Of a stretch of 64,000 nt of DNA, positions 1 through 32,519 are shown one piece after another. The stretch is from Isoperla grammatica (lineage: Eukaryota > Arthropoda > Insecta > Plecoptera > Perlodidae). Below the pieces are notes generated by a model. It was not told the origin of the DNA. It did not search any database and worked only from the letters and a program-made list of their open reading frames with translations. The DNA lies in contig OX246743.1 in NCBI GenBank assembly GCA_945910005.1, positions 43,682,736 through 43,746,735 of the forward strand. The letters run 5' to 3'. Position numbers and translations under genes: made by a program. Every line of letters starts with the position of its first letter. Within the stretch, counting starts at the first letter, position 1.

Positions 1-1090
1 CGAACCAAAACCAACGTGGTACCGACGCCGTTTTACGACTCAAATACATGCCTAGACTAGCAGCGGAATCCGAACCAAATCCAACGTGGTACCGACGCCG
101 TTTTACGGCTCAAATACATGCCTAGACTAGCAGCGGAATCCGAACCAAATCCAACGTGGTACCGACGCCGTTTTACGGCTCAAATACATGCCTAGAAGAG
201 CAGCGGAATCCGAACCAAAACCAACGTGGTACCGACGCCGTTTTACGACTCAAATACATGCCTAGACTAGCAGCGGAATCCGAACCAAAACCAACGTGGT
301 ACCGACGCCGTTTTACGGCTCAAATACATGCCTAGACTAGCAGAGGAATCCGAACCAAATCCAACGTGGTACCGACGCCGTTTTACGGCTCAAATACATG
401 CCTAGCCTAGCAGCGGAATCCGAACCAAATCCAACGTGGTACCGACGCCGTTTTACGGCTCAAATACATGCCTAGACTAGCAGAGGAATCCGAACCAAAT
501 CCAACGTGGTACCGACGCCGTTTTACGGCTCAAATACATGCCTAGACTAGCAGAGGAATCCGAACCAAATCCAACGTGGTACCGACGCCGTTTTACGGCT
601 CAAATACATGCCTAGACTAGCAGCGGAATCCGAACCAAATCCAACGTGGTACCGACGCCGTTTTACGGCTCAAATACATGCCTAGACTAGCAGCGGAATC
701 CACCCCAAATCCAACGTGGTACCGACGCCGTTTTACGGCTCAAATACATGCCTAGACTAGCAGCGGAATCCAAACCAAATCCAACGTGGTACCGACGCCG
801 TTTTACGGCTCAAATACATGCCTAGACTAGCAGCGGAATCCACCCCAAATCCAACGTGGTACCGACGCCGTTTTACGGCTCAAATACATGCCTAGCCTAG
901 CAGCGGAATCCGAATCAAATCGAACGTGGTACCTACGCCGTTTTACGATTCAAATCCTCATTTAGTATAGCAGCGGAATCCACGTTAAATACAACGTTGG
1001 ACCAACGTTGGATTGGCGTCGGTAATCGAAGAAAAATTTCCCGCCGTTGCACGCCACAAATACAACGTCGTTCCGACGCAGCTGTTCTAC
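1..1090. repeat. 70-bp tandem satellite, about 14 units plus degenerate end
   Basis: Fourteen head-to-tail units of exactly 70 bp run from 1 to about 980; each starts near CGAACCAAA and ends CAGCGGAATC. Units differ by a few point changes only. From about 905 the copies decay, and 981-1090 keeps only fragments such as CAACGTTGGACCAACGTTGG. The array begins at the window edge, so its full length is unknown. It lies upstream of, and presumably in an intron of, the axotactin-like gene. Confidence 0.95.
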
Positions 1091-1591: not shown

Positions 1592-1762
1592 ACCGGTGTA
1601 CGGGGAAACATGAGACCGGGCCTTGCAAGACATTCCTACACAAGTGGCACTTCAACTCCACGAGCCAGACTTGTCACACTTTCATCTACGGGGGCTGCGA
1701 GGGGAACAACAATAGGTTCGACTCCCGCGACGAGTGTCTGCATTACTGCATCGGAGGGGACC
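1592..1762 (+). CDS. axo: axo-like exon 1 in window: Kunitz domain
   Basis: Acceptor TTCCTAG, donor GTGAGTG; starts with two bases completing a codon, ends phase 1. The single exon holds a whole Kunitz/BPTI domain with six cysteines, the GPCK inhibitory-loop start (lysine at the P1 position), FIYGGC and GNNNRF. Because it enters mid-codon, at least one coding exon (signal peptide) lies upstream of the window. Confidence 0.92.
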
Positions 1763-4700: not shown

Positions 4701-7700
4701 GAGACGCCCATAAATCTTTTCTTGACATTGTTTATGTATATCTTGGCCACATATTCTATTACTCCGTTTCTTAGCCTATCGTCTTCGTTGCCAGCTAGCC
4801 AGGCCAGACACAACCTCATCCCCAACCTCTTCCTCATCTTCCTCTGCTGCCGTAAGTCTGTTCACTAGTTCTTTCCATATTTCCGCGATGTTTCCATAAT
4901 CTTTCTGTACTCGTATTTTGTATACTCATGCACATTTGTATAAAAATCAAAATGTGACCGGTGAACGTGTCCGATCTCCTCTTAACTGTTTCAGGTTATG
5001 TCGCGAGATTTCCTTCCAGTTCCGCACGCGTCTGCCGCACGGCCTCCTGGTCTACCACAGCGTCAAGGGTCGTCCAGAAGACCTTGACCCCTACGCCCTC
5101 TACGTCATCGTAGAGAACGGTCAGCTCAAGGTCGTCCACGTGTTCGGGAAACACTCTACGTCACTGACGGTCGGCGAGGGGTTGAACAGAGATCACTGGC
5201 ACACGGTCGAGGTCAGGATCGACGTCCACGGAGCGAGACTCATCGCGAGGGTAGACGAGGAAGAGACGGAGACCAAGTTGTTGGGGTTGGATGAGTCGAG
5301 CAACTATGGGGTTCCCACTGACCTACCGTCCGTTGTGCTCATTGGAGGTGGGTATAGTCGCGTCGCGTTAACTTGCAAGGTGGTGTCGTCACGGATTATG
5401 TAATAGTGAAGTGACGCGTGTGACAACTACCAACCTAAATCTAGTTGCATCCCGTTCTCCTGCCTCAGATATTGTAGTGATAATATCGCCCGCATGTTGT
5501 CAGACGTGGTGGGGTCGCATTCCATTCACGGTTGGTGCAGTCGATACAGTGGACAATAACAATGCAGATATCGGCAATCTCGAGTTGAATACCGTTGAAA
5601 TAGACCGTGTGGCGCGACCGTCTCTTCTCAGAATTTTAGGGGACACCTTGTTTCTTACGGCGTCGACACTGCACACTGTATTACATCGTAGTATCGAACC
5701 TCGCAAATTTAAAGATTACCACAATCTTTAGCCATACGTAAAGCCGCAGGTTGTGAGGATTTAGTTGATTATTTTCCCCATTCATGTAATTGCCATTCAG
5801 TAAAGCTGATGTGTGTTCTATCTGCACTTGACTCCCTTTTGTCGCCGCATGTTTATAGGTATTGTTATCAGTTGTTAGAGTCTCGTATCAGCTAGGTTTC
5901 TTGTTACTTCCTGTAGGTAGTTATTTTCCTTCCTTTCTTTCTTCTGACTGTGTTCAGTAGTCAGTCATTATGGTGATAAGCGTTTACCTGGTTGTGGAGA
6001 CTCTTATTGCACTGAAGATGTGTAAGGTTACAATAATGTTAGATAAGCACTAACACAAGTGTACATGAATCAAACTCACAACACAAAATAATAATGATTT
6101 CTGGATACAATTGGTATAACAATAAAATATAATGAATATATTGTGTTCTCGACTGTCTCTCCTACTAAATAGTAAATACTACTTCAAACAATGTATACAA
6201 TTTTTAAGGATAACCTAAAATTAGCTCTTAGGTAGCGGCAAACAGGCATCAGGTGCACACGTCCAAGTCTTTTGACTTATGTGTGCACCAAAATATACCA
6301 TTTTTAATAACACGATTGTATTGTTATTTGACAATGTATACTGCCAATAAAAATTGAAATTGAAATTGAATTGAAATTGAATTCAATTTGTGTTTAAATT
6401 CAGTAATCAATGAACACAAAAATTGCCTAAAAACAATTGCAAAATAAAATGCAAAATAATAGTGTAATGTATATGTTGCAGGGTTGAGTCCAGAAGAGAA
6501 GCTGCACGGAGTAAAGTACATCATAGAGTCGTTTGTGGGCTGCATAAAGCACATGACCCTGAGCGCGGGCAAGGCTGTGTCCGACCTGTTGCCCATCAAG
6601 CCTCTCATCGCGACCAAACACGAGAACGTCGTCGAGGGATGCTCCAGCAAGTAGGCGACTTGTTGCACATCCACATCCACCTCTAGGATAACTTGCACAA
6701 CCTAACTAGCGTCATTTTTACTAAATAAACGAGCCCACTTCTCTAGTTCTCACCACCTACTTGAATCAAGTGCACTAGAAGGACAATGTACACCCTTGGG
6801 TTGGAGACATGGAAGTTCCTAACACTGTAGGCGTGACAGTGCACTCTACGAATGTGGGTAATAACGCCAGGAATCTATGGATTTTCGTTGAAACCACGCG
6901 CGTAAAAGGGGCAGTAGATAATGACAATGCGACTAGTATAGATACCCAACCGCTGCGGTTGTATGTCTACTGCTTCGTACAGCTGAACGTAATCTAGTCG
7001 GCTAGTACATAAAGGCAAGTGCGTGGACGATGACAGCGCACGATAGTAAAGAGCAGTGATTCGTGCATGCGTTTGCATTCTGCTACTAGCCGACTAGATT
7101 ATGTTGACTGTACGAAGCGGTAGACAACAACCGCAGGCGTTGGGTTTACGTAATAATGCAATCAATAAAACATGAAATTAGATAATGTATAAACGGCTAT
7201 GGAATATCAATAACTATTACCGTATCTTATGTAACAGGTGTCACTCGAGGCGGAATCTGTGCTTCGTGGGCAGCCGATGTGTCAACCATTACAACAAATA
7301 CACCTGCGACTGTTTCGGAACAAAGAACGAGGGAGAACTCTGTGATCATAATAGTAAGTATATTCGTGTTACGTCTTTATTTCCACAAAACCATCTTCCA
7401 AAATCTCCGTCTGGGCCCGAGGTAGAATATTCCCAGGGTGACTCTGCCAGTCGTAAGAGGGGAAAACGGAGATCATGTCTCGTTCCCACCCACCCACTTG
7501 ACCATTCCCTCCCTTGCTGGACTTTCCTTATGACGACCCCCGCAATGTATAATGGATCTGATTCGGAAGACGTCATATGACCTGAGCTGTCCAATTGTTA
7601 CAGCCGCCACGGTAATCACCCTCCGCGGCTCCTCGTACCTCTCGTACCGCGTCTACGACTGGAAGGATCGCGTCAAGTCTAGCGTGAATCGCATCAGCCT

Positions 7701-10700
7701 GTTCTTCAAGACTCGCTACGATGACTCCGTCCTGTTTTACGCGAGCGGGGAACCCTACGAGCATCACTACATCGCCGCAGCCATCAGGAACAAGACTGTT
7801 CACGTGGAGATCGACTTCGGCGATGGCGCCATCAAGACGACCATTGGCGAGGACGTCGCGTCCAACTACTGGAACAACCTTACCATCGCGCATCACAGGT
7901 ACGGAGCACTGATTGATTGATTGATGATTGGCCTGCATTACAGTATATAAATCCAAACAATGTTTCATTTGGTCATCAAAATAGCTAGATTTAGCGAATG
8001 AAATCATTATAATAATAATTTTTCGTAGGAATACCCGTTATAGGATGCACACCAGCTTTACCTGATGTGCCGCTCTTCAGGTGACTAACTAGGTTATTAG
8101 GGTGTTTGGATATCTGGGGAGGAATGTCCGAGGGCTGTTAGTAGGACTCAATCCCAGCATTCGCCTTTACGTCTGAGGAAAACCTCGGAACCTTCAGTCA
8201 GGACTGCCAGTGGCCGGAATCGAACCGGCGACCTCCTGAATTGGAGTCTCGCGTCTTACCGCTGAGCCACCTCTATCGGTAAATCATTATGTGGGTGTCC
8301 TTGATCACAGGGAGGTGATCAGTATTCACCTCAACGAGGAGACGAAGGTGTTGGAACTGCCGGGACCTCACCGCCATCTTTATATCGACCCTGAGATCTA
8401 CATCGGGGGAGGTCCGGACCTTGAAAAGAAGAAGGAGTTGGCGTCCGACAACAACTATGCAGGTTGGTGACTAACACAATACTACCAACCTTATGATTTC
8501 TAAAAAAGAACTACCCCTTTAGTGTCCGTGACGCATCCATTAAATTTTCCCATATTAAACGTTACTCTTCAGACAGAGACTATTCTCTGCCTTTTGACTA
8601 AGAAAATGCTTTTTTAAACGTATGGTGCATTCACAAACTTTTACGCTGGCGGAAGAAATTCTATTCGAAAATGGGAGGCGTCGTTTAAGACGTTACGTAT
8701 CCTGATTGGAAAACGATTTTACGCGATATAAACTAGCGTAAGGGCTTGTGGTTCGTGAAAGTGCATCGAGTCTAAAATTTCTCCCAATTCAACGCATTGT
8801 TTTAATGTTTGTAACACCACGATGAAACTAGAACTACCATGATGAATCTAAATATCAAATTCCTTTCAGGTGTCTTGAAGTACGTCTTCTTCAACGACAT
8901 ATCCATCATATACGAACTCCAGAAGGCCAACCCGAAGGTCCATTACATCGGCGTCCTCGCCCCGGAGATGTACGAGGTGGACGTTGAAGTGTTGCCCCTC
9001 ACCTTCCCCTTCCCCTCCACCCACATCTGGTGGCCCACCGCCTCCAAGGCCTCCCTCTCGCTCGACCTGGGGTTCAGGAGCACAAGGGCGGTGGCCGCGC
9101 TGGCCATGGCCAACGTTACCACCCCAGAGACCGGGACTCAAGGTTACTGGGAGCTGAAGACGGTGGATGACGAGATACGCTTCGAGCTGGTCGCTGATAG
9201 GTCCAAGAATGAGACACACGTCACGGCGGTCAAGTACGACTCGAGGGGGGCGTGGCATTCGGTGAGTCATTTCTACTCCAATCACAGAGCTTAGATACGC
9301 TTCCTAGCGGGTAAACTTATCCCTAGAGCCAAGGAGTACTGACGTAGCGCGCGCATCGTCTAGCTTGGTGCGGATTGGACGACATTGCCCTTATTTGTAG
9401 ACTACTACAAGTACTCTTTGTAGCCGCCATGTTGTCTTGATAATTCGTCTTTGAGATAGAGAATACATGTAGAGGAGCCAGAGTTAGTTGGAGCAGTAAA
9501 TTCTCTAGAAGATGCCAATGTCATAATGTTTCATTTTCTTTTACAACAATTTTAAAGCGTCCGGTAGCCATTTTAGGCGTGAGAAATCATGCATTGCACT
9601 AAATTGGTAGACACAGCCTTTATTTGTTGTCTAACGCCCACCGTCCCCTGCCTGTCGTACGAAGGTACTGACGTCACACGCTTATCTGTATCTAGGTGGA
9701 GCTGAGGTATCAAGACAACGAACTGCGCATGACTATAGACTACCGCCACAAGGTATCAGACAATCTGACCTTCACCCCGGGCCACCTGTTGATCCTGGGC
9801 AGCGGACACAAGACAAGTGTCACGAGAGACTAGTATGTAAATGCGTGTCTGTGCATGTCTAGGTGGAGCTGAGGTATCAAGACAACGAACTGCGCATGAC
9901 TATAGACTACCGCCACAAGGTATCAGACAATCTGACCTTCACCCGGGGCCACCTGTTGATCCTGGACAGCGGACACAAGACAAGTGTCACGAGAGACTAG
10001 TATGTAATGCGTGTCTGTGCATGTCTAGGTGGAGCTGAGGTATCAAGACAACGAACTGCGCATGACTATAGACTACCGCCACAAGGTATCAGACAATCTG
10101 ACCTTCACCCTGGGCCACCTGTTGATCCTGGGCAGCGGGCATAAGACAAGTGTCACGAGAGACTAGTATGTAATGCGTGTCTGTGCATGTCTAGGTGGAG
10201 CTGAGGTATCAAGACAACGAACTGCGCATGACTATAGACTACCGCCACAAGGTATCAGACAATCTGACCTTCACCCGGGGCCACCTGTTGATCCTGGACA
10301 GCGGACACAAGACAAGTGTCACGAGAGACTAGTATGTAATGCGTGTCTGTGCATGTCTAGGTGGAGCTGAGGTATCAAGACAACGAACTGCGCATGACTA
10401 TAGACTACCGCCACAAGGTATCAGACAATCTGACCTTCACCCTGGGCCACCTGTTGATCCTGGACAGTGGACACAAGACAAGTGTCACGAGAGACTAGTA
10501 TGTAATGCGTGTCTGTGCATGTCTAGGTGGAGCTGAGGTATCAAGACAACGAACTGCGCATGACTATAGACTACCGCCACAAGGTATCAGACAATCTGAC
10601 CTTCACCCGGGGCCACCTGTTGATCCTGGACAGCGGACACAAGACAAGTGTCACGAGAGACTAGTATGTAATGCGTGTCTGTGCATGTCTAGGTGGAGCT

Positions 10701-11310
10701 GAGGTATCAAGACAACGAACTGCGCATGACTATAGACTACCGCCACAAGGTATCAGACAATCTGACCTTCACCCTGGGCCACCTGTTGATCCTGGGCAGC
10801 GGACACAAGACAAGTGTCACGAGAGACTAGTATGTAATGCGTGTCTGTGCATGTCTAGGTGGAGCTGAGGTATCAAGACAACGAACTGCACATGACTATA
10901 GACTACCGCCACAAGGTATCAGACAATCTGACCTTCACCCTGGGCAACCTGTTGATCCTGGGCAGCGGACACAAGACAAGTGTCGGCCTGGTGGGCTGTA
11001 TGCGAGGCATCACCGTCAACGGGGAGTATGTGGAGCCGCGTTACGTCGTACACACCGAGAGGGCGGTGGGGGAGATATCCATGGACAACTGTGTGCTCGT
11101 TGACCCCTGTATGAGGCCCAACACGTGCGAGCATGGGGGAAAGTGTTCCGTCAAGGAGGACAAGGTCATCTGTAACTGCAAGGGGACCGGATACATCGGC
11201 AACAACTGTCACTTTGGTGAGTTTATTTATTTCACATTGATTATGTACATTCTATTGATATTGCTTCTCAAAGAGAGAGTATGAAATTATAACTTATGGA
11301 GGGGGTGACA

Positions 11311-11378
<68 letters not shown>

Positions 11379-11450
11379 AATGACGATGAAGATGCCCTTG
11401 ACGATGACGATGACGATGACGATGACAATGACAATGACGATGATGATGAC

Positions 11451-11482
<32 letters not shown>

Positions 11483-14400
11483 TGAGGAGATAATGAACAA
11501 CTGTCTGACTGTTTCGGTTACAGCCGAGTTCCGCAAGACGTGCGAAGAGTTGGCCCTGCTGGGATACACCAAGCCAGACGTCTACCTTATCGACATAGAC
11601 GGCAACGGACCATTCCCCCCCGCCCACGTCAAGTGCGAGTTCCAATCGAAAGAGTTCGAGGAGTCGACTAAAACCATCGTCGAGCACAACCTGCCCAGCC
11701 AAGTAGTACGTATCTCACAGAAAGGTCGTGATATGAAAGAAATACCATATTTTAATCTGCGATCCCCCCACAATACTGAAATGGTTATTTATTATAATTG
11801 CCAGATTTGATTTCGATTGATCAAATACGTTTCAAATGTGATAATCATTACGGCTCTCATCTTGCAAACTAATTAACTCACAGGGACAAGTAGAATGTGA
11901 AGGGGATGATGGAAAGGGAAGGACGTGGACTGCCTTTCGTTTGATTTCTCCCCCTCGACCTGTCCGGCTAGGGTGACCCTACCAGAAGCATACGCTTCCG
12001 CTGATATAGCTCTCGGGATCAGTAAAGCACACAATCCTGGACAGGACAAGGCAGTCCCTGGGCAGGTAGGAAAGTGGTATCAAATCTTATAACGAGCAAC
12101 AACTTGCGCTGTTTGCAGGACGTGCGTGGTACGACCGAGAACGACTTCCGGTTCAACATCACCTACCGCGAGTTCAGCGCGGAGATGCTACAAGAGTTGA
12201 TCTCTCACTCGCTTCACTGTAGCCAACACATCAAGTACGACTGTTATAAGGCGCCGCTAGAGCTGCACTCTGCTACGTGGTTCTTCTCGTCGGCCCGGGG
12301 TAACATAGTAGACTACCTGGGCAACGTGAACCGGGGCGTCTGTCCGTGCGCTGTCAACAGGTAAGACGCTGCATCTCTCACTGTAGCCAGCACATCAAAT
12401 ACGACTGTTATAAGGCGCCGCTAGAGCTGCACTCTGCTCCTCGGCCCGGGGTAACATAGTAGACTACCTGGGCAACGTGAACCGGGGCGTCTGTCCGTGT
12501 GCAGTCAACAGGTAAGATGCTGCATCTCTCACTGTAGCCAGCACATCAAGTACGACTGTTATAAGGCGCAGCTAGAGCTGCACTCTGCTCCTCGGCCCGG
12601 GGCAACATCGTAGACTACCTGGGCAACGTGAACCGGGGCGTCTGTCCGTGTGCAGTCAACAGGTAAGATGCTGCATCTCTCACTGTAGCCAGCACATCAA
12701 GTACGACTGTTATAAGGCGCAGCTAGAGCTGCAATCTGCTCCTCGGCCCGGGGCAACATCGTAGACTACCTGGGCAACGTGAACCGGGGCGTCTGTCCGT
12801 GCGCAGTCAACAGGTATGACGCGCAGGACGATGCAAGTAGTTTTAGACTGTCTATTCCTTGGTACATAGTGAATGCACATGCTTTCACGTTGTTTCTGCA
12901 CCAGTATTTTGTTGTTGTGTTACGCCGTTCTCGACAGCTAAATCATAATAAAGTGACGTCGGGGAGTGACTGGAGGAAGACTATTCTTAAGTGTTCAGAG
13001 GAGGAAAAGGGAAAGGAACGGGGTCTCATTTTGTGGCCTTTTACGACTGGCAGTCACCCTGGGCTTAATTCCATCCCGATCGCAGAAGAGTATTGTTTCT
13101 CCAAAACCGAGTTTGGGAACTTTTGGCGGATGTATGAGATAGTTTGGGGGGCAGCCATTATTACGTCACACTTCGTGAGTCACCTTCAAAAGAAGAAGAA
13201 CCAGGGGGGGGGTGCATCTATAAGATGGGAAGACCAATCCCCTAAGGACAGTCCGATCCAGATCTAGGGCGAAACCATTGAGTAATATTTTCAACTTTAC
13301 ATGAATCAATCCTTCTACAAAGTGTTTTCGTCTGCAGTCCTGAAATTCTTAATCCTTAATACTGGTGTTGATGTTTTCAGGACCTGCCTGAGTCCCAGTC
13401 AGTCGTGCAACTGTGACATGTCCGAGGGCAAATGGTTCTCAGACGAGGGTCACTACGTCACACCAGAAAGTCTCGGAATTACCGAAATGGTATTCCTACA
13501 ACAGAAGGAGTTGAGTAGCGACGCTCAAGGCAGGATAACGCTGGGCCCACTCGAGTGTGTGGAAACAAGTAAGACACTGCTATAGATAAACTGCTATAGG
13601 TCTCTCACAGCAAGAAGTAAGATAGTATCAGGATCGCCCACATTTAGTTTCCAACTTAACAAGCGCGAATCACTGACGTTTTTCCCGATTATCTAGTACA
13701 ATTTGGCTGCGGTAAATTTTTTGACGGTAACGCACAAGAAAACGTGCAAGTATGTTTCCGTCAAAAAACTTAACGCAACCAAATTGTACTAGATAATCGG
13801 GAAAAACGTTAGTGATTCGCACTTGTTAAGCTGGAAACTAACTGTGGGCGGTCCTGACTCCCCTGACACTATCTTCCTTCTTGGTGTGAGAGACCTTTAC
13901 TGCTCTGCTACAGCTTGTGGGTAAAGTAGTTGACAACTTGTGTTGGTCGCTGCTTCCAGATACCCAGCAGTACGTCGTTACCTTCACATCTAGTCAGTCG
14001 TACATCGAGGTGCCCGGCTGGAGGAAGGGGGACATCTCTTTCAGCTTCCGGACGACGGGGGAGAAGGCCATCCTACTGTACCAGCCTCCCATCAGACCCC
14101 ACCATCCCTCGTTCATGGTCGCCCTAACCAGCGGTAAGATATGAAGATGATGCTTGGTCGCAACTTTCAGGTCGGAACTTTAATCTGACCCGTAGTTTTA
14201 CATATTTTACAGAAAGCGCTCGTTCTAGCCGATTTGGCGACGAATTTAAAGTTATGCTGATAAACTATCTACAGAAAATCAACCTATATGACTGGTCAAA
14301 GCTACACTGTCCTTTCGGATGGGACGTAAAGCCGATGGTCCTCTTGGTACTTTTCGACAGGAGTAGGCTACGTGCCGGTACCAGGCTTCCCCTCCTCCTC

Positions 14401-17194
14401 ACTATCATTCATCAATCATCACTCATCAGGCTAAAGAGGGCATTGTGCCCTATACACTCGTCTTAATTACAATAAAAGTAAAGTATAAAAAATCGCGATG
14501 GCATTAAAACAAACGATTATCGCGATTTCAACTCTAAAATCGATTCAAATCGATCAATGACAAAATGTAATGTAACATTTGTAAGAAGAGACATTGTTCC
14601 CGCAGACTTTCACCTGACGTTCAACTTCACCCTCAACAACGGGATGTCGCGCGAGCTGCAGATAAAGTCCCAGCGTCGACTCAACGGGGGAGAATGGCAG
14701 AAGATCTGGATCGACTACAACGAGCATCATGTGCGCTTCATGATCAACACTGACTATCAGATGGTCGATCTGCTGCCCTGGGAGGAGTTCGGCCCGTTCG
14801 AGGGGAGCATGTTCATCGGGGGAGCCACAGAGTAAGAGCAAAGGGGGAGACTACCGGGGGAGCCACAGAGTAAGAGTATATAGAGGGAGACACTATCGGG
14901 GGAGCCACAGAGTAAGAGCAAAGGGGGAGACTACCGGGGGAGCCACAGAGTAAGAGTATATAGAGGGAGACACTATCGGGGGAGCCACAGAGTAAGAGTA
15001 TATAGAGGGAGACACTACCGGGGGAGCCACAGAGTAAGAGTATATAGAGGGAGACACTATCGGGGGAGCCACAGAGTAAGAGTATAAGGGGAGACACTGT
15101 CAGGGGAGCCACTGTAGAGTAAGACTATAGTGGAAGACACAAACTAAAGGGGAGACACGCACTATCGGGGGAGCTACAGAGTAAGAGTATAGGAGAAGAC
15201 ACACGTACTAAAGGGGAGACACACACTATCGGGGGAGCCACTGTCGAGTAAGACTATAGGAGAAGACACACGTACTAAAGGGGAGACACACACTATCGGG
15301 GGAGCCACTGTCGAGTAAGACTATAGGAGAAGACACACACTAAAGGGGAGACACGCACTATCGGGGGAGCCACAGAGTAAGAGTATAGGGACACACACTA
15401 TCGGGGGAGCCACAGAGTAAGAGTATAGGGACACACACTATCGGGGGAGCCATAGAGTAAGAGTATAGGGACACACACTATCGGGGGAACCACTGTAGAG
15501 TAAGACTATAGGGGGAGACACGCACTATCGGGGGAGCCACCGAGTAGGACTATAGAGGAAGACACATTATGTGTGGGGAGGGAGGGGTATTTCTTAAATT
15601 TAATATCTACCCTGCAGTGATTTCATTTTAACCAACAGTGTCATTCTTGCACTAAAACCCCTTGGCGTGCAAGGAGATGAGGGCCAGATGCACAGTCTAA
15701 CTAATTGTATAGGATTTGTTCATGGTTGCTGTAGAGTTTGTGTTTCTTTTGGAAAATATCATGTAATAAAAGAAATCCATAGCAAAAAACAGTTGACTGC
15801 GCATCTGGCCATTAGTGTTTGATTTTTAAAGAGATATAAAAAAGAGGTTGTCATTGCCTTGCACCTTGCAATGTATCATTGTATGTTTAAAAAATCGGAA
15901 ACCCGATATTAGTAGATAGTTCCTCACCAGGCTATTGTTTGTAGAGGTATGCTGAAGAAGAGCTCCGTGCAACAAGGCCTGATCGGGTGTTTCCGCGGCC
16001 TCGTGGTCAACGGAGAGATCCTAGACATCTACTCCTACATGAGTGTCCACCTGTCCGAGATCATCAAGGACTGCAAACCCTCGTGCGACCCCAACCCCTG
16101 CAAGAACAAGGCCCAGTGTAAGGAGCTGTGGAGCACCTTTCAATGCGTCTGCGAGAACCCCTGGGCACACGTCGGCACCTACTGCGAGACTAGTGAGTGT
16201 ACACGCAACTAAAACTATCAATTTATTTATTTTTTGGTGTTGCCTACCCCTCGGTACAGTCAACATACGCTAGACAGATAGTAGCAGAATGTAAACGCAT
16301 GCACGCATCACTGGTCCGTACTATCGCGAGCTATCATCGTGCACGCACTTGCGTTCTGCTACTAGCCGACTAGATTATGTTGAGTGGTACGAAGCAGTAG
16401 ACGGACATTCACATCAAAAGCAAAAAGCAAATACCTTAATAGGAATTATTTGTCAAAAGGGTTGTTTGCACAATGCACAGCCTTCTTTTGCTCACCGCTG
16501 CTTCTTGCAGACATCAACACTAAGGCGGTGACTGTCCTTACCCACCGTGTTGCTTGCACAGCCTTCTAACGCTTTCTACTTATGCTTGCAGACATCAACA
16601 CGAAGGCGGTGACTGTCCTTACCCACCGTGTTGCTTGCACAGCCTTCTAACGCTTTCTACTTATGCTTGCAGACATCAACACGAAGGCGGTGACTGTCCT
16701 TACCCACCGTGTTGCTTGCACAGCCTTCTAACGCTTTCTACTTATGCTTGCAGACATCAACACGAAGGCGGTGACTGTCCTTACCCACCGTGTTGCTTGC
16801 ACAGCCTTCTAACGCTTTCTACTTTTGCTTGCAGACATCAACACGAAGGCAGTGACTGATCCTTACCCACCGTGTTGCTTGCACAGTCTTCTAATGCTTC
16901 CTACTTATGCTTGCAGACATCAACACGAAGGCAGTGACCTTCCTCCGCGCCGAGGCCTACATAAAGCGCAACTACCTCGCCAACGTGACAGACGAGGAGA
17001 AACTCTTCCTGACCCATCTGATGAACGAGAACATTCTGATAAACCTGCGGACGTACGGCGAGAACTCTCTCGTGCTCTACGCCAACGATCATCTCAACAA
17101 CTTCGTGCAGTTACACCTGTTGCAGGGGAAGTGGGTTGTCTTCATGTTCAACGTGGGCCGCGAGATACATAACGTCTCCGTGGAGTACCCAGGT

Positions 17195-17230
<36 letters not shown>

Positions 17231-20200
17231 GGAGTACCCAGGTAACTCTCTCTCTCCGTGGAGTACCCAGGTAACTCTCTCTCTCTCAGTGGAATACCCA
17301 GGTAACTCTCTCAGTGGAATACCCAGATTCTTTTCTCTCACGTCTTACCATGGAATGCCAATGACAGCAGAGCAGTGAAATGCGCGAATTACTCTTCAAA
17401 TTTTTCATTTTTATTCAGATAAAAAATAGCATTTACCTGTGTTTATTATATATTAAGTAATTCCTATAGGTAAGCTATTGTTATTACTGATAAAGATTCC
17501 TAGACTATTAATTATCATTGTTAATTACTTTTACATTTTATTGTGAAAATTATGTTTTCATAATGCTTCTACCAGTGCTTCTACCGTATTAAATGCTTTC
17601 AGTGCCAAGTGGTACCACTTAGAATTTCGAAGCACGTATAGAAGTCTCAATATTATGTTTAGTGACTCGATTTTACGGCTGTCTGTATCGTTGCAGGACT
17701 CAACAGCGGAAAGTCGGTCCAGGTAGCGATCGTGAGGACCGAGGCAGAGACGATCCTGCACGTGAACGAGCAAAGCGCGTCAATATCGGCACCGATCCTC
17801 ATGTTGTCTGAATACTCATACAAGCCGTGGACAAACCCAGAGAGAGGTAAAATATATCAATATATAAACTGGGCTGCTGGAGACGATGAGTGGTTGAAGG
17901 GTGTCCCTAAACTGCGTGCAAATTTATGCGGGACTCGAATCCAAGTCCCTTAATTGGCACCACAGCCTTACGATACGATATAATGTTAGACCAAATCAAC
18001 GCACTATATAAGCACACAGTTTTATATTTTTATCTTTGTTTTCAGAGGTTCTAGCCCCCCAGCGCCCACCTGCACCCCCTACCGAATACTTCCAGATAAA
18101 TCTGGGGGGTTTCGACCCTTACAACTTGATCTCGGGGTCCGACGCCCCCCAACTGGACGGCTACGTGGGATGCATAAGGGGACTGCAAATAGGGGACCAC
18201 TTGGTAGATCTTCCAGCGCAGGTACCCTACTCTATGAAACGAGGTAAGTCAGATGAAATACCAAAATTTAAGCGTACCTATAAAAGCGTGGTCACAAGGC
18301 GAAACACAATCATTGGGGGGGGGGGTTGTTGGGCAGTAGGTCGCAGAGGGCCAGCATGAATGAGAATTAGAAAAGACATCAAGACGAAAGAAGGGGGAAT
18401 CACTATGAATTAACTGAACGGGAGCCCACATTGATTGATTAATTAATGGGGCTTAACGTCTCATATTTATGCAACGATGGCTAATCGAGACGATGAGCGG
18501 GTGATAATGAAGATGAGAAACACTTTGCGGGCATCGGTCACCACGAGAAGGGAGTAGGGACCCACCTCGACTGCTAGGGAGACGTTAAACATTCGATAAG
18601 CATGAATCTAATAGGTTTATTTTATGTTCAATCAGAAATTTGACAAATATTTTTGAAAAATCTGATTTTAACTAAATTTCGAGTTAGTTTTTTCGGTTTG
18701 CAGCAGTGTGTTAGTATAGTGGTATGAACGTGTTCTAGACGCAGAGGGAGTGAAGGCCGGATGTCAGATGAAGTGTGACGAGGTTCCTTGCAAGAACCAG
18801 GGGATCTGTATCGAGGACTTCCTAAAGGGAGAGAGCTCGTGTGACTGCGAGCAGACATCCTACTACGGAGAGTTCTGTGCCACGGGTAAGAACGCAAACA
18901 CAAGCTTACTTTTACTGCATTGTATTTAAACTTTGTCATTTCACGGTACTTTTACAACCTTACGCAAGGAGATGATTGTGGAGGTGAATGAGAGAGTGGC
19001 TGAGGTGTGTGTGGTAGAGGATGCAACTTTTGTTAACAGCAGGTTGTGGGTGGGAAGGGGCTTACTGTCAGGGGATGGGTTGCATCTGAATAGGAGTGGG
19101 GCAAGAGAGCTAGGTAATCTTTTTGTTAGGATAGCAGGTAGTCTCGCGTGACAGGAGGATGGTCAAACCAAAGGGAGGGATATTCAGGGGAGGGATAAGG
19201 GGAGGGTTAAGATAATGTCAATTAATTGCAGGAGTGTAAGGAGTGGGGAAAGATTGGAGCAAATGTGGACGTTGATTGAAATGTATGAGCCGGATGTAGT
19301 GGTATGTGTGGAAACATGGTTGGATGACGAGATTCTAAATGGGGAGCTAGGGCGTAAGGGATATAACGTGTTTCGCAAGGATAGAAATAGATATGGGGGG
19401 GGGGGTGATGATTGTCTGTAGGGAGAATGTCAAGGGCACATTGTTGTGGGTAGATAATGCGGTTGAAATGATGTGTGTGCAAGTAAGGGTGGGGGGAGGT
19501 TCTTGTGTGGATGTGGTGGGAGTATACAGGCCTAAGGATAGTGGGGAGTGGCAAGTGTTAGATAGGTTGGAAGAGGTAGTGATGGGTGATAGAGGAAGAG
19601 TGTTAGTAATAGCTGGGGATCTAAACTTGCCTGGAGTTCACTGGGAGGGGGGGAGGGAGGATCTTGGAGGCAGAAGGCAGGAATGGGCCTGTAAACTTAT
19701 TAATGAGGGGTTAGTGCAAACGGTAGGAGAGGGGACGAGGATTTGTGGGGAGGGGAGGAATAACATTTTAGATGTAATATTAGTAAGGCCGGAGGAAGCA
19801 TGGGTTCACTCGGAGGTAGTAGAGGGAATGAGCGATCATAGGGCCCCAATAGTAGAGTTAGCACTAGGTAGTGGGTGGGAGGGAAGGCAGGGAAATAATA
19901 GTGAAAGTAGGGACAAGACAATCTGGAGATATGATAGAGCTGATGTTCAGGGTTTGCAAAGGGAGTTACTGGTAATGTATGAAGAGTGGTCTAGTAGGGA
20001 TGTGGGAGTAAATGAAATGTGGGAAAGTTTTCTGCAGATATATAGGGGCTTGTTGGAAAGGTTTGTGCCGCAGGTGACTAAGGGGGGTGGGACTGACCCA
20101 GTATATTATAATAAAAGAATCAGGTGGTTGAAGAGGAAGTGCAGAGAAATATATAAGAGGTATAGGAAGACTGGTAAAGGTAAGGAGAAACTTAAGGAGT

Positions 20201-22372
20201 GGGAGGGAGTTCTTAATAGGGCAAAGGTCGATGCAAAGGATGATTATATGATGCACTTAATGGATGATGAGGGATTCCAAGGTAAAGGGAGAAGGTTGTA
20301 CGAGTCACAACATTTAATCTGTAATTATTATGTTTTGGACAATACAACTTTCTCACAAATTCGAAGTTCTACATAATCTTGTAGCCTGCAGCCTTAATTA
20401 TCTAAGGAACCAGAAAGGGGGGGGCGAAATACCCACACTTAAGGGGACTGGGGATGAGTTATTTACTGGTGATAAGGACAAAGCGGAGGTTTTAAACTCA
20501 CACTATGGGGAGGTATTCCAAGAGAGGGAAGATTCTAGTATGCAGTGGGAAGGGGGGAGGGGTAGCAAGCCACTCACGATAACGAATCTTGATATTAGAA
20601 GGGTTTTAGGAAAGATGGGAGGGAGAAAGGCATCGGGGCAGGATGGGTTGATGTGTAGATTTTTGAAAATTGGGGGGGAGGGGGTGGTTAGGTTTGTAGG
20701 GGATATTTGCAGGAAATCGTTAAGGGAAGGTACTATACCGGAGGGTTGGAGGGAAGGACTTGTAGTGCCAATACATAAGGGGGGGGGATAGAAGTCAAGT
20801 AGGGAATTACAGACCTGTTAGTCTCACTTCGGTAGGGAGCAAGATAATGGAAAAGGTAGTAGCAAATTATGTTAGGGAGGTGTTGGAGGGGGAGGGATGG
20901 TTGGTAGATAGCCAGCATGGGTTTAGGGAGGGGTATTCTTGCGAGACGCAATTGATAGGTCTTGTTCAGGATATAGGGGAGGCTCTAGATAAGGGGGAGG
21001 AGGTTGATGCAGTTTTCCTTGATTTTGAAAAGGCTTTTGATAAAGTGTCTCATGGGATTTTGATGAGGAAGGTTGATAGTGTGATTGCAGATAAAGGGGT
21101 TGTAAGGTGGATGGGAGATTTTCTAGCAAATAGGTCGCAAAGGGTAAGGGTGGGGGGTAGCATATCAGCAGCTATCGAAGTTACATCGGGGGTGCCGCAG
21201 GGGTCGGTGCTGGGTCCACTGTTATTTATAATGTTTATTAATGATATAGGAAGGGATATTGAGTCAAGATTAAGGTTGTTTGCTGATGATTGCGTCTTGT
21301 ATAGGGTGATTAAGGGGGTGGAGGATGCTAAGTTGTTGCAGGATGATTTGAACAGGATAGAGGAGTGGGTTGATGTTAATAGGATGGGTTTGAATGCGGG
21401 AAAGTGTAAACTGGTTGGGTTCACGCGTAAATTAAAAGGGGATGCGAGAGAGTATTTTCTTGAGGGGGTAGTTCTAGAAAAGGTAAAGAAGTATAAGTAT
21501 TTGGGAATTTTATTGGCCGAAGATTTGGGATGGGGGGACCAGGTGCAGGAAAGTGTAAGAAAGGGATATAGAAACTTGGGGTTTGTTATGAGGAATTTGA
21601 AGGGAGCTAGTAGGGAGGTAAAGGATATGGCTTACAAAACAGTGATACGGCCTATATTGGAATATGGTGGTGCGGTGTGGGATCCATATAGGAAAGGGGA
21701 AGTCATGGAATTAGAAAAGGTGCAGCGTAGGGCGGCAAGGAAGGTTACAGGACAAGTTAGGAGATGGAGGTATGTGGAAGATAGGTTAGGGAATGTGGTA
21801 AGGGCTTATGATAGTGTTACAGCAATGATGGGGGAACTGGGTTGGGAGTCCTTAGAGGAGAGACGGAGGAGTGATAGGATGTGTAATTTATATAGAGCAG
21901 CTAGGGGGAAAGGAGGGTGGGGGGAAATCCAGAGCAGGTTGCAAGAAGGAGTTTATAGAGGGAGGGGGGATCATAATTGGAAGTTTCAGCGTCGGGTAGT
22001 GAGAAGTGATCTGGGTAGGTTTGGTTTTGTTGAGAGAACGGTAAGGGAATGGAATGAGTTACCCGAGGAGGTTGTTGAGTGCGAGTCAGTAAGGGAATTT
22101 AGAAATAGATTGACAAAAAGGAGGTGACGAGGGAGGTTTGGATAGGTTGCCACCGGGTAGTTGTGGCCCATTTGCAGCCTTTAAGTGTTTTAATCTAATC
22201 TAAACCTTGTTTGACTGTCGCCATCTGACAAAATTAGTATTCTACACTATTTTGTAAATGGCCTGCACTCAAGTCTCCATGACTTTGCAGGCTTCTCCAA
22301 CTTTATATAAATATTAAATAGCCACTTTTTGAGTAAACGTGTATGTATCTGTGTGAGAATAAAATTATCTGA

Positions 22373-22408
<36 letters not shown>

Positions 22409-25400
22409 AACTGCAAACGGAAATTTTCGGTAATTGAAGATAATTTTTTTTTTTAAGAACTTTTTTCACCGGAAAACCGTAGATTGTGCAGAAAATGAAA
22501 GGGAAATGAAAAGGGTGTTTGCTCGACAGAAAAGGGAGCTGACTTTGGAGGTGAGTCCGCCCTGCAGCGCAAGTACTTGCTGGACGGTCCGGTCAACAGG
22601 GTCAAAGTTCAGCTGGCCTTCTCAAGCAACGACCAGCGCCAGTACCGGACAGTGCTGCTGCTACTCCAGACGCAGAACAGGTGAATACTGAACTAACATT
22701 TCGAACAACACAGTCCACATATTAATATTTAATTTGATCATGGATTTATAATAGTTAATTGATTATTTGGTGTTGATAACGACGTACTTGACAGCTTAGG
22801 TCATATGACGTCTTCCAAATCGGATCCATTATACGCGGGGGTCGTCATAAGGGGAGTCCAGCAAGGGAGGGCAGGGCCAAGTGGGAGGAGGAACGTCTTA
22901 AGTGAGACAGTAGAGGGAAGGAGACAGGGTCTCCTTTTGTCGCCTCTTACGACTGGCAGAGTCACCCTGGGTCTATTATACCCCCCCCCCCCCTCAGACA
23001 AGCAGATTTAAGATCTGAATTAAAATAGCTTTACAGCAAAGAATACATCAAGTAGCTATAAATATAACTAACAATTGTTGTGTTTTCCAGGCGCAGTTAT
23101 TACCTGATGGTGGCCCTGACTAGCGAGGGTCATCTTATCTTCGAGGAGGACAGAGAAGGGACAGCAATGGGCGCGATAGTCAAAGACAGACATTTCCTAA
23201 ACGGAGCGAGACATTCTGTCTATTACCAACGCACGGATGATACCGCAGTTCTACTCGTAAGTGCAAACAATATTATAACTTATAACCGATAGAGATGGCT
23301 CAGCGGTAAGACGCGAGACTCCAATTCGGCAGGTCAAGGGTTCGATACCAGTAGTCCCGGCTGAAGAACCCTTCAGTCACAAGGCTAATGCTGTGATTGA
23401 GTCATGCCATCAGCCCTCGGACACTCCTTACTCCTTCTCTATACTATTCCAAAGATCAGAATACTATAGTCACCTAAAGAGGGACGGTTTCTTATGAAAA
23501 ATTAACACTATTTACATAAAAAAAGGCGGCTGCCTCTCAAGTAGGTGGCCTCCCATACACACACATGCGAGATACTCTAAAAGGGGCAATGCCTTGATAG
23601 GTACCTGGCATTTTATATTATATAGACTATCATGGCCCGAGTTAATGTAGAAAAATGAACACTTTAAGGTTTATTCTACCACGTCAGTTATATATATATA
23701 TATATGGGATGCTTATAGTAATTGGTTGTATAATGTTCCCTCAGCGAAAATCAGTGTCTTGTAACTGTGTGGGTCGACACCAAACACAAATGTAATTTAT
23801 TAGTAATAAATGAACCTTCCTAGATTGACCGCGAGGTGGTCGCGCTGGAGACGATCCCGATCACGAGGTTGACGGAGGTCAGAGTGGCCGACGAGGGCGC
23901 CAACGAGGTCCAGGTCGGAGGGGTCAACACAAGTGACCCTCGCTTCGTCGCCTACAAGAGCTACAGTGGGTGCCTCTCAAGTAGGTGCCCTCCCATACAC
24001 ACACATGCGCAATACTCTAAAAGGGGCAATGCCTTGATACCTGGCATTGATCTTTCCCTGCAATGAACTAAAGACGGATTCAAGATAGAATCATTAAAAT
24101 ATACTGTATTGAAGTGATCTAATGCAAATGGCAGTATGAAAATAAAATGAAAAATGCTCCGACACCGGCAATCCTCACTACAGGGCCTGTATATCCACAA
24201 GAGATCCAAATTGTGTGAATTTATAAAACATACTATTGGAATTTCAATTGTGTCTTTGTTTCTATACTAGGAGTTAAGAACTTGAAAACTACTAGCTTCA
24301 CATTCACAAGAGATACAAAGTTAGACTGATCTTACAGTTAAGTTCAGAAAAGTCTTAAGACCTCTTGTAAATTCAGGCCCAAGTTTTGTTTCTCTCAGTC
24401 ATTTAAACGCTTGGATTAAGTTAACATTAATTTTTTTATTCAACATCATTCAAATTGATACAAGATAGTCCTATAAATATGAAATAATTTAGCTATGTAG
24501 TTGTTTATGTTTTGTTGTGTCCGTCAGACGTATTCTTGGAGGTGAACTCGTACGAGATGAAGCCGCTAGAAGAGTACATGTTGTTCACTAAGACGGGCAG
24601 CGAGAAGGTGAACGTGATGAACGCTGGGGGAGTGAGGAGTGCTCAGTGTTCCTTCTTCGACGTCGTCCAGAAGCCTCAGCCGGGACCCTCGCTCAACCTC
24701 AGTCTCGTGAGTCAATTGGTTCACGTGGACATTTCCTGGAAAGAAAAGCGGTGTTAGAAATAAGAAAAACTATAGAGAAGAGTTCTTTAATTCTATAATT
24801 TATTAATTTAATTTAATTGTTCTAATAATTTATATATTATTAATTCTATTTTATTATATATATATATATATATAATACTCACGTCCATGTTCTCTGTTTT
24901 CAGGGTCTCCACAAGGGATGGGTGGACGAACCACCAGCCAAGATACCCTACGTGTTCACAAACGCTTATCCATCAGAGGAAGAAAATGGTTCAACACAAA
25001 GTAAGTTAGCAACAATATGTCACCATAAATGTCGTCGCCCCGTATGACAGGCAGAGCTACCCACCACAAGTATGGGGGTGCTCGTCATAGAAACTATAGT
25101 TCCGAAACTAGTTAGTTCGTGCGGTGGGACCCTCCAAACTCACTATCCCCCCCCCCAATATTAAAATAATGTTACACATTGGGTGGCAGCGTATCCTACC
25201 TTCTATTGCTCTATATGAAAGTATTATCTGGTGATTACTATCATTATATTGTTAAATTGTTTGCTTACCTAATTGGTAGAAACATATGTATATGAATGTA
25301 CAGAATAGACCATGTTCATTTGCAGATGAAACTTGGAGGAAGTTAAATTAGAAGGTTAACATGTACGTGTGAGTTAGGCTCCAAGTATAACCAGAACATG

Positions 25401-28400
25401 ATTGCTGCTTCGTGTGCAAAGTATGTATTTTACATTTATATCGATAGTTCTTCAACGACTTATATATTTGCTTGATTCCAGTAATATTCCTAGTCCTGAC
25501 CACTTTCTTCGTTCTCATCGTCCTGCTGGGCCTATGCCTGGTCTACCGATCTCACCTCCAATACAAGAAGCGCATGGAGGAGGAGACAGATGCCGCCATC
25601 TTGTGGCAGAAAGGTCAACCAGTCAAGTACCAGGACCCGGTATTGAGTCCCAACGTACAGATCACAGCGTACAAACCGATCCCGCAACAGGATCTCAAGC
25701 CCAACGGTACCGAGCTCAAACCGATTGTAAAGAACGACTATAAGCCGGTGTCAACGACGCCGCCGGCCGAAGACTTCCCCGTGTTCAGCGATAGTAAGCC
25801 GCCTGAGGAAGGGAATGAAGAGCCCGAAAAGCAGCCGCGGAAAGAAAATGATCTGCTCATTCCTCAGGTATTTATCACAAGTTGATAAACAGATGCAGTG
25901 AGCCTACACCTACACATATAATATAATATTTCTACATAAGAATTGAGTTACACAGATTGTACTACAACATAAGTTATGTAGCTAGGGAAAAACATCAACA
26001 GTAAAATGGGATTATAGCCAACAGCTGTGAAACCAATACAAATTTTAGTGGAAAATTAGTCACTTTTGTCTAACTTTGTAAATTTATCATTAATGTAATC
26101 TGTCCAATAATAATAACTTAAAGTTTGCATACATTTTTCAGTTTTGTGAGGGGGACAGGGTCTGATTTTGTCGCCTCCCTCCACAGAACAATGATTTGAT
26201 TCGTTCAAGTTAATAGTGACGCCAATGTTTCAGCCGTTCGAGGACTTAGCGCGAAGCTTACACAACAGCATCGCAGAAGAGGACGAAGGTGACGTAGAAG
26301 ACGACGAAGATGAGGAAGAAGAATTACTCGACATTCCCAGCAAACCGGTAAGCAGGTCACTTGCTAACATGGCCCCGCTTAGCACACTCAGCGAGGTCAC
26401 GCTTAACGCTTTCGAGTGATGGTACAGCGATCTGTCTTGTGATCCTTCGCGCCTGTGTACTTAGAAACCTTTGAGTATAGAGACAGGGTGGAGGCTCGAC
26501 GTCAGCGGCTAAATAGAGTATTAGTGTGACGTCACGTCACGCTTAACGCTTTCAAGTGATGGGACAGCGATCTGTCTTGTGATCCTTCGCGCCTGTGTAC
26601 TTAGAGACCTTTGAGTAGTGGAAGCTCGATGCCAGCGGCTCTTTGTGCACCGCCCAATAGACCAATTTAAAACTTTGTGTGATTCTCATCATGGTCCTTT
26701 AAGTCTTCAAGAACAATAATATACAAGAATTAAAAATTAGTTTTCAAAATTTTATAATTAGATTAATTGATGCATACAAGATCACCATCTACTACCTTGA
26801 TTTTAAATTTTTAAATGGCATGTATTGTTGCACATAAAGATTTAGACAAACAGCCATTGGTATTGGCAATGGTATTGGTTATCTAGTCAACTTAAATGGT
26901 TCTATACTCGAAGATATAATCGTTGAGTGAGAAGCTCACTCAACAATATAAGGTTACTTCTAAGAGGCCACAACACAAATATTGATAGTGTTAACTTATT
27001 TCTACAGCTTTAAACCAATGACTAGTTAAATGTTTAGTGGGCCATTGTGTACTTAATTAATGAGCTGATTGGTTGCAATGACAACTTAGATTAAGAATAG
27101 TGAATATAGTGAGTGCTCTCATTTGTGAACATGTATGGATACGTTTGATGAACAAAATCACATAAAACATTATCAGGGTTGCCAGTTTCAAACATTACTG
27201 TAATAAACAGTTATCTGTATAGTTACTTCTAGGAGTAGGACAACTGTTGTGATAAAGTTTTTCTAGGCAGGTGATTTAAATTTAGGACACTAATTTGTTA
27301 TTCAATTAAGATCACTCCAAATTTTATTGTAATTTTATTTTTTAAATGATTCGTTATGTTCTTTATATATGAACAATCTCAATCAAATTGTAGCCAAATT
27401 TGTCAACCAGTTAAAAAAAACTTTAACGGAAACTGGCAACCGACAGTTTTTTTTAGAAATCTACGAGATTTCAGAATTTTTTTGTCGCAGTCATGCATTA
27501 AAAAACACAAACATACTCTTGAAAATATTAGTCTAGTCATTAAGTGTCAAAATGAGGACATTCAGAAGAAATATAAGAAACCAATGATAATGTAAGAAGA
27601 AGAGATGACATTTTAGAGGTACATAAGAAATGATATAGCAGTATGAAAGCTTCCGGGCGGGTTCTAATAGTACTTTCCCATCCTCGTGTGCATGTAAGTA
27701 ACCAAAACTCTACAGTGTGAACATGATACTCAGTGGTGGAGGTGCCTGGGTCCCGTACACAGTGTTCTACACGGAAAGTGCTGTTCACATATCTATCACT
27801 GTACGGGCATATTTCTACAGAGAATCTAAGGTACAGAATATGGTACAGGAGGTGAATGCACTGGTTCAGGGTTTCTACACTTGTTACTGTGTGTGACACC
27901 AACATGTTTGTGTGTTGCACTCTTTATTGTCGGAACAATTGTGGTAATATTAGGACCCCCATGAATTTCACTTCCGATATATTGTTTCTTATGAAATTAT
28001 TAAAACAAAAAAAAAGTCAAGAAAATATACTTTTTCTTGTGTCATCGGAAGGTATATGACGAAACATGTAAGTAAAACTTGAAGTAAAAGTAACATTGGA
28101 AACAGTTTAAATTCTAATTTGGCCCCATGCCATCCAACTTTTCAATGTGACTTGACTGACTTCACATATTTGTACTATCTTGTTCGTTGTATTTGAAAAT
28201 GTGTAGAAACTAGATTCTAGATAGTATAGACAAGAGTAAGTCATACGTTTACTAATTAAATGTGTCCATTTTGTATGTATTTAAATAAGCTATAGAGAGA
28301 ATAATAAATCAAATTAAAATTTCAACCAAGTTAGCAAAATTTCAATTACAAGAAAAATGGTACGTAATTCTGTTTACAAATTCATACTTTGATTGATTAT

Positions 28401-32228: not shown

Positions 32229-32519
32229 GTTTGAGCTTGGAGGGAAGGATAGGAAGGAACCAACAGCTTACCTTGTAGTAGTTGCGGCCTTCGGAGTCGA
32301 TAGAAACACAAAAAGATATATACACAAAACGTCGAGACTGTTTCGGCCTGACCTGGCCTTGATCACGACGTCGGGTGATCAAGGCCAGGTCAGGCCGAAA
32401 CAGTCTCGACGTTTTGTGTATATATCTTTTTGTGTTTCTACTTTCTATCGACTCCGAAGGCCGCAACTACTACAAGGTAAGCTGTTGGTTCCTTCCTATC
32501 CTTCCCTCCAAGCTCAAAC
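32229..32519. mobile_element. Near-perfect palindromic foldback, family D
   Basis: About 140 bp from GTTTGAGCTTGGAGGGAAGG to GGCCTTGATCA repeat almost exactly in reverse complement, around a centre CGACGTCGGG. Few differences between arms imply recent formation or correction. Both strands show the same mirrored open frames, which are artefacts. Confidence 0.92.

Follow-up and report, generated by a model that had tools for sequence, protein, structure and literature searches.

Do the tandem duplications that lie on the exon–intron borders of one stonefly gene point to a process directed at splice junctions, to a function in splicing, or to ordinary repeat growth at places where it is tolerated? 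We addressed this question in a 64,000-nt window of the Isoperla grammatica genome (GCA_945910005.1, OX246743.1), and all coordinates given below are positions in this window. A first-pass annotation had described seven splice junctions of an axotactin-like gene as duplicated, had read this as growth of existing junctions by a process known from models of intron gain, and had mentioned splice-site buffering or isoform regulation as possible roles.

Junction arrays in the axotactin gene

We built an axotactin model in which 28 exons form a single open frame of 1941 codons plus the stop (Table 1). One or more further N-terminal exons are expected to lie outside the window. A 1936-codon version of the model, in which exon 22 ended at 23965 instead of at 23980 as set by ortholog alignment, is 67% identical to Periplaneta axotactin over 100% of the length. 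An Rfam scan of the window gave no match at the gathering threshold.

Table 1. The axotactin gene and its local duplications.
Feature	Positions	Strand	Copies	Relation to the junction
Axotactin ortholog, 28 coding exons found	1592..30858	+		54 internal junctions
Exon 9 acceptor array	9691..10984	+	8 x 166 bp, tandem	spans junction; real acceptor in last copy (exon 10859-11216); 7 decoy acceptors upstream in intron 8, the first at 9696
Exon 11 donor array	12198..12820	+	4 x 151 bp, tandem	spans junction; real donor in first copy (12360); 3 decoys in intron 11
Exon 14 donor array	14815..15555	+	16 donor copies 38-67 bp apart, tandem	spans junction; real donor in first copy (14831)
Exon 16 acceptor array	16474..16944	+	6 copies of 81-82 bp, tandem	spans junction; real acceptor in last copy (16917)
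Exon 16 donor array	17175..17339	+	4 donor copies 29-49 bp apart plus one without GT, tandem	spans junction; real donor in first copy (17192)
Exon 22 pair	23528..24048	+	2 direct copies of about 85 bp at a spacing of 440 bp, displaced	copies exon 22 donor (23980)
Exon 26 pair	26396..26640	+	2 direct copies of about 115 bp at a spacing of 140 bp	in intron 26; donor not spanned

Most of the seven claimed sites held up. Five are tandem arrays of head-to-tail units longer than about 10 bp, hence minisatellites, that span the junction with the copy numbers first proposed (8, 4, 16, 6, and 4 plus a decayed one), as counted in a single haplotype. The other two are gapped pairs. At exon 22 the pair is displaced, in agreement with the first-pass annotation: the second copy (23968-24048) holds the last 13 nt of the exon and the donor, and the first (23528-23612) lies in intron 21, with 355 bp between them; the extra copy is thus upstream of the exon, which does not fit simple tandem growth. 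The exon 26 pair (26396-26510 and 26536-26640) begins 49 bp beyond the exon end and therefore drops out, leaving five of the seven sites overlapping a junction as tandem arrays and one as a displaced pair. Taken by itself, the Tandem Repeats Finder (TRF) interval of the exon 16 donor array begins 23 bp past the junction, and the first copy becomes visible only when the junction sequence is aligned.

The repeated unit takes in the splice site together with the adjoining end of the exon and a short piece of intron. In all five tandem arrays one exon-anchored copy has stayed intact and keeps the frame, and the additional copies are found on the side of the intron. The reading frame stays open when the last acceptor copy or the first donor copy is used, and the protein alignment shows that the orthologs have no additional residues at any array junction. 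Each of the five introns also keeps 281-560 bp of non-repeat sequence and so most likely existed before its array. The units themselves are unrelated, as first proposed: BLAST among 17 arrays returned 0 cross-array matches, which speaks for several independent duplications of existing junctions and not for one spreading repeat. In a search of the whole assembly that skipped common words, the exon 9 unit had 8 matches, all 8 at its own locus. Column counts had hinted that the breakpoints are fixed at the splice site, but the aligned flanks ruled this out: the duplicated part covers from about 10 to 60 nt or more of intron and from about 11 to 126 nt of exon. The motifs GGGGGAG and CTCTCT are repeated on either side of the exon 14 and exon 16 donors.

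Coding consequences of the decoy sites

We then computed what each extra splice site would do to the protein. All 33 tandem decoy sites, each used alone, lead to a premature stop, and so do all 7 pseudo-exons of the exon 9 array, in whose decoy units an acceptor is followed 137 nt downstream by GTATGT, which resembles a donor. An in-frame addition is possible only in the exon 16 donor array, where three extra copies hold the 12-nt in-frame TGGARTACCCAG followed by GT, and all 3 are open. Apart from these repeats, no copy could splice in with an open frame as a cassette or mutually exclusive exon would. Since 4 of the 7 exon 9 decoys change G to D at a glycine that is identical across six aligned sequences, and since all 3 exon 11 decoys share a frameshifting gap of 13 nt that are present in the exon, coding capacity is not maintained in the decoys.

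These data bear on the proposal that the additional copies are maintained because they serve, as decoy or U1-binding sites or as poison exons, to adjust the splicing or expression of these genes. The decoys score within the range of real sites in a model trained on axotactin, the exon 9 units combine an acceptor with GTATGT, the 12-nt repeats are in frame, and splice dinucleotide columns vary in only 2 of 28 cases against 7.1 expected, although this last test is biased, most of the variation coming from the unrelated intron flank of the outermost copy. Against such a role stand the premature stops, units that have no sequence in common and the recurrence of arrays in unrelated genes (see below), which gives no pointer to a gene-specific task. 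We consider a retained function quite improbable, and the isoform-regulating role first suggested finds no support.

Junction arrays in other genes and the expectation by chance

We sampled the surroundings of other laminin-G exons in 18 stretches of 10 kb, picked before their repeats were examined. The sample covers laminin-G gene regions plus one Osiris-like neighbor. From the TRF output we dropped rows with a period below 20, fewer than 2.5 copies or less than 90 bp, including 9 two-copy or short rows (from L032, L033, L034, L036, L043 and L044), as well as low-complexity self-match clusters with G+C below 0.2 (L038, L039). L049 and L050, which are window flanks, were left out of the counts; the L050 arrays have no predicted exon nearby. 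The resulting list of 21 arrays was compiled by hand, and two exons that fell below the predictor threshold or within an array (L039 2115-2230 and L047 5064-5162) were also added by hand. In this list, 9 of the 21 arrays span a predicted junction, in laminin-, perlecan- and flamingo-like genes and in an Osiris-like gene; the exon calls come partly from coding prediction, with 5 of the 9 exons backed by Pfam domains. Two more arrays are ambiguous (L035 7529 and L040 257) and are counted only where stated. If only a mechanical rule is applied, contact with the edge of a predicted exon is seen for 8 of 21 TRF arrays from 20 loci. Since other genes show this arrangement as well, the arrays are not special to axotactin, contrary to what the first-pass annotation had implied. 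Counted per junction, such copies occur at 6 of 54 in axotactin, the displaced pair included, and at 9 among 176 predicted elsewhere.

The excess over chance depends on the null. In axotactin, 6 of 8 local duplications span a junction, with P 2e-4 under uniform placement (4e-4 without the LINE), P 0.004 when placement is matched for G+C, and P 0.023, with 3.2 expected, under the strictest null, in which exon-internal arrays that break the frame are also forbidden. Placing the end of exon 22 at 23965 gives 5 of 8 and, under the same four nulls, P 0.003, 0.005, 0.033 and 0.13. For the other genes, uniform placement predicts about 2 (2.0) of 21 against the 9 observed (P 4e-5), and the strictest null predicts 6.3 (P 0.13). 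Pooling both sets under the strictest null gives 15 of 29 against 9.6 expected (P 0.015), or 17 of 29 (P 0.0012) with the two ambiguous arrays. The first-pass annotation had taken a chance rate of overlap as grounds to abandon its reading: under uniform placement the overlap clearly exceeds chance, and with G+C and survival taken into account, chance is approached without being reached.

Junction arrays have a median G+C of 0.58 and the 10 non-junction arrays one of 0.49, against 0.41 in the local background of the latter, which indicates that repeats tend to be G+C-rich even off exons, although 3 of the 10 lie below their surroundings. In the 18 stretches, 68% of 150-bp windows with G+C of at least 0.52 touch a predicted exon. 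G+C and exon are poorly separable in this sample, so that G+C matching may over-correct. Much of the junction excess fits repeats that are born in G+C-rich, mostly exonic DNA and survive only beside an intact exon copy, with a residue left unexplained.

AGGT or AG had been noted at most of the junctions. Duplicated junctions read AGGT in 3 of 6 cases in axotactin and in 5 of 9 elsewhere, together 8 of 15; among the remaining axotactin junctions the count is 12 of 48 (Fisher P 0.057, or 0.047 if counted as 8 of 14). The tie is weak, and 7 of the 15 junctions do without AGGT, which is hence not required.

Origin of the arrays and comparison with known systems

Taking these observations together, we lean, with some reserve, toward ordinary minisatellites that happen to lie across splice junctions, with an origin driven by G+C, survival where they are harmless and no dedicated function. 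Tandem duplication followed by unequal exchange would occur preferentially in G+C-rich DNA, which is mostly exonic in the sampled regions. Wholly exonic arrays would break the protein and be purged by selection. If, as exon definition assumes, the spliceosome pairs the nearest sites across an exon, arrays at a border could survive, the intact copy still being selected and the rest lost with the intron. Introns would become longer and gain decoy splice sites in a nearly neutral manner, and the arrays probably persist because copies in such positions are largely harmless. The residual excess under the strictest null counts against this reading.

That excess is also what would be expected if duplication were directed at junctions independently of G+C, through transcription-coupled breaks, R-loops at exon edges, or microhomology of AG/GT and pyrimidine tracts. 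The AGGT counts and the GGGGGAG and CTCTCT repeats point the same way, but the breakpoints are scattered, the nine arrays of other genes alone do not reject the strictest null, and most junctions are free of arrays; we regard such targeting as unlikely. A wider version, in which duplication biased to splice borders is ongoing in this particular stonefly lineage, junction copies sit at a few percent of introns genome-wide, and spare sites can become exons, microexons (for which the in-frame 12-nt units behind exon 16 would be candidates) or introns, is distinctly doubtful. Intron gain by tandem duplication of a junction, the known model that the first-pass annotation had mentioned, could draw on the complete splice sites inside the duplications and on a potato gene in which a junction-crossing duplication made a new intron (PMC4974935). 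The non-repeat sequence kept in all five introns argues against it, the protein needs no new exon, and we judge it very improbable. An assembly artefact is hardly credible, since the copies differ by point changes in a patterned order and since every axotactin array is shorter than 1.4 kb and can be spanned by single HiFi reads. According to the genome note, the assembly was made with hifiasm from 25.55 Gb of HiFi data in 2.94 million reads (by division a mean near 8.7 kb) and has a QV of 55.3.

If about one junction in 20 carried such copies genome-wide, the genome would serve as a natural experiment in how as many as 15 nearly identical decoys next to a real site are passed over by the spliceosome, and it would show where added intron length and the material for new exons and introns can come from. 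The arrays are also a warning that gene finders will call false exons within them: a simple one made for this analysis called 9 in two axotactin arrays.

The closest parallel is found in segmentally duplicated human genes, in which recent primate paralogs carry internal tandem repeats at exon–intron boundaries, with 30-bp units and 4 repeats on average, and alternative transcripts (PMC2812944). As there, minisatellites lie over the boundaries, alter the extent of introns or exons and favor longer units; unlike there, the stonefly units measure about 30-192 bp, reach up to 16 copies and are present at 5 of 54 junctions in a single conserved insect gene as well as in several other genes. In the potato RdRp gene, a tandem genomic duplication across an intron–exon boundary includes, as in the stonefly, an acceptor and the start of an exon, but there one extra copy yielded a new spliced intron and an extra exon (PMC4974935), whereas the many stonefly copies appear to have been taken up by an intron that was already there. 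Intron gain through tandem duplication of an AGGT-bearing exon, as outlined in a review (PMC3443670), likewise supplies extra GT and AG sites, and 8 of 15 stonefly junctions read AGGT; here, however, 7 of 15 lack it, no new intron is seen and the introns of the five tandem arrays retain unique sequence. Finally, the arrays resemble introners (PMC9860276) in changing introns en masse in one lineage, but introners are copies of one element, and the stonefly junctions carry units without a common sequence in place of a homologous element.

Duplicated junctions of the axotactin gene

We derived a 28-exon model of the axotactin gene from splice signals and reading frame, and the top database matches of its protein were insect axotactins. 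Among the 120 matches listed, the highest identity (72%) was to a partial Diploptera protein, and the Periplaneta axotactin was 67% identical over its full length. Whole-protein alignment with the orthologs placed the end of exon 22 at 23980 and gave a protein of 1941 codons. Since there were no inserted residues at the array junctions in this alignment, the exon-anchored copy is most likely the one used at each of them in the mature message.

The first-pass annotation had proposed duplications at seven junctions of this gene. We could confirm five of them (exon 9 acceptor, exon 11 donor, exon 14 donor, exon 16 acceptor and exon 16 donor) as tandem arrays across the junction, with the copy numbers it had given. 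The duplication at exon 22 is, as described, a displaced pair, with a first copy in intron 21, 440 bp upstream, and a second copy that includes the exon 22 donor together with the final 13 nt of the exon. At exon 26, however, the pair lies beside the donor instead of across it. The units of different arrays were also said to be unrelated, and indeed we found no sequence common between them; the exon 9 unit had no match elsewhere in the assembly in a search that skips common words. The extra copies of the five tandem arrays are all on the intron side, the real site being the last copy in acceptor arrays and the first copy in donor arrays. Four of the seven exon 9 decoys (extra splice-site copies) carry a G to D change at a glycine identical across all six aligned sequences, and the three exon 11 decoys have a common 13-nt gap, which argues that the extra copies are not maintained as coding sequence.

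Decoy scores fall within the range of real sites, although they are not independent because the site models were trained on the real sites of axotactin. The reading frame predicts that single use of any of the 33 tandem decoys, or addition of any one of the seven exon 9 pseudo-exons, would cause a premature stop. In-frame addition would be possible only for the 12-nt repeats after exon 16, with four residues apiece; three of these repeats have a donor after them, two of the three being preceded by AG.

Junction arrays in other genes

The duplications had been presented as belonging to one gene, a claim that does not stand, as junction arrays are also present in other genes of the genome. In the assembly (874,298,753 bp, with the window at C13:43682736-43746735), for which the genome note gives HiFi reads, we sampled 18 stretches of 10 kb around other laminin-G exons, taken from family matches and picked blind to repeats, plus the two window flanks. 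Similar-looking repeats were present in the sampled stretches. We applied a simple exon predictor, which on axotactin returned 25 of 28 exons exactly (with the above end of exon 22), overlapped 26 and made 10 false calls, 9 of them inside arrays. At the sampled loci, 86 of its exons had 30 bp or more lying outside arrays. By a mechanical rule applied to 20 loci, 8 of 21 Tandem Repeats Finder (TRF) arrays touch a predicted exon edge. In a hand-compiled set from 18 loci, 9 of 21 arrays cross a junction and 2 are ambiguous.

Some of these arrays lie in genes that we take to be perlecan-like, laminin-like and flamingo-like, the first with Pfam laminin-G and EGF domains. Pfam domains support five of the nine exons at junction arrays, and for two others the support is their coding score together with their location within the same gene. 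Of the nine laminin-G gene regions, five had no clear junction array in their stretches, one of these five having an ambiguous array; thus, arrays cluster by region.

Other elements of the window and its surroundings are included in the table. ARAGORN and Rfam returned nothing at the two SINE-like sequences, and no predicted coding exon lies near the G+C-rich arrays upstream of axotactin.

Junction arrays in other genes and further features of the window and of sampled 10-kb stretches (L-numbers; L050 is a window flank)
Feature	Position	Strand	Description
Perlecan-like gene (presumed name)			acceptor arrays with a 91-bp unit (15 copies) and a 161-bp unit (7 copies); donor array with a 192-bp unit (4 copies)
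Laminin-like gene (presumed name)			155-bp and 140-bp donor arrays
Flamingo-like gene (presumed name)			donor array with a 57-bp unit (15 copies)
Exon at junction array	L039 389		sub-threshold match only, laminin-G (E 0.16)
Exon at junction array	L040 6233		sub-threshold match only, DUF1676 (presumably the Osiris family; E 0.006)
84-bp repeat	L040 257-1018	minus, open	28 codons; either coding repeat or junction array
High-copy G+C-rich arrays	window 1-955; L050 2927-5492 and 9428-10000		just upstream of axotactin; a 70-bp array continues over the left window edge
SINE-like sequences	window 8225-8280 and 23290-23360	opposite orientations	resemble a tRNA-derived SINE, by eye
Foldback element	window 13595-13899		arms of 104 nt, 91% complementarity; possibly a miniature transposon
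Foldback element	window 32229-32519		arms of 78 nt, 100% complementarity; possibly a miniature transposon
LINE in axotactin intron 19	window 18960-22200	that of axotactin	reverse transcriptase frame (Pfam RVT_1) and separate upstream frames
Histone deacetylase gene (Pfam)	window 40860-46520	minus	no TRF-listed array at its junctions, read by eye

Chance, base composition and origin of the arrays

The breakpoints scatter widely to either side of the junction, and this favours ordinary tandem duplication over a process locked to splice sites; short direct repeats flanking some junctions are plausible seeds of duplication. G+C content as a cause is supported by the arrays away from exons, which are mostly G+C-rich (median 0.49 vs a background of 0.41), with 3 of 10 below their surroundings. 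However, G+C and exon largely overlap in this sample, as 68% of 150-bp windows with G+C of at least 0.52 touch a predicted exon. On the most likely reading, minisatellites would be born in the G+C-rich DNA of exon edges, a survival filter would act against exon-internal arrays, and exon definition would make arrays at junctions tolerated and probably neutral. The structure of the arrays, their effects on the reading frame and their presence in several genes are observed, and their cause, their neutrality and the choice of splice site are inferred.

Whether such overlaps are as common as chance, an objection already raised in the first-pass annotation, depends on the null: uniform placement, G+C matched placement, or G+C matched placement with exon-internal frame-breakers forbidden. 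For axotactin, where 6 of 8 local duplications lie across a junction, P was respectively 4e-4 (without the LINE), 0.004 and 0.023, values that flatter the finding because it was selected for its striking look. The other genes (9/21) gave 4e-5, 0.012 and 0.13, and pooling (15/29, with 3.5, 6.6 and 9.6 expected) gave 6e-8, 2e-4 and 0.015. Uniform chance is therefore rejected at the sampled loci, while the strictest null is not rejected by the other loci alone, though it is by the pooled set. An additional bias towards junctions may act on top of G+C and the survival filter.

Among the best matches listed from the open-access literature, none described an insect genome with arrays of this kind at numerous junctions, which is weak evidence of absence as most subscription journals are outside this scope. 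Related published cases are minisatellites at exon-intron boundaries in human segmental duplications (PMC2812944) and a tandem duplication crossing a boundary in potato (PMC4974935).
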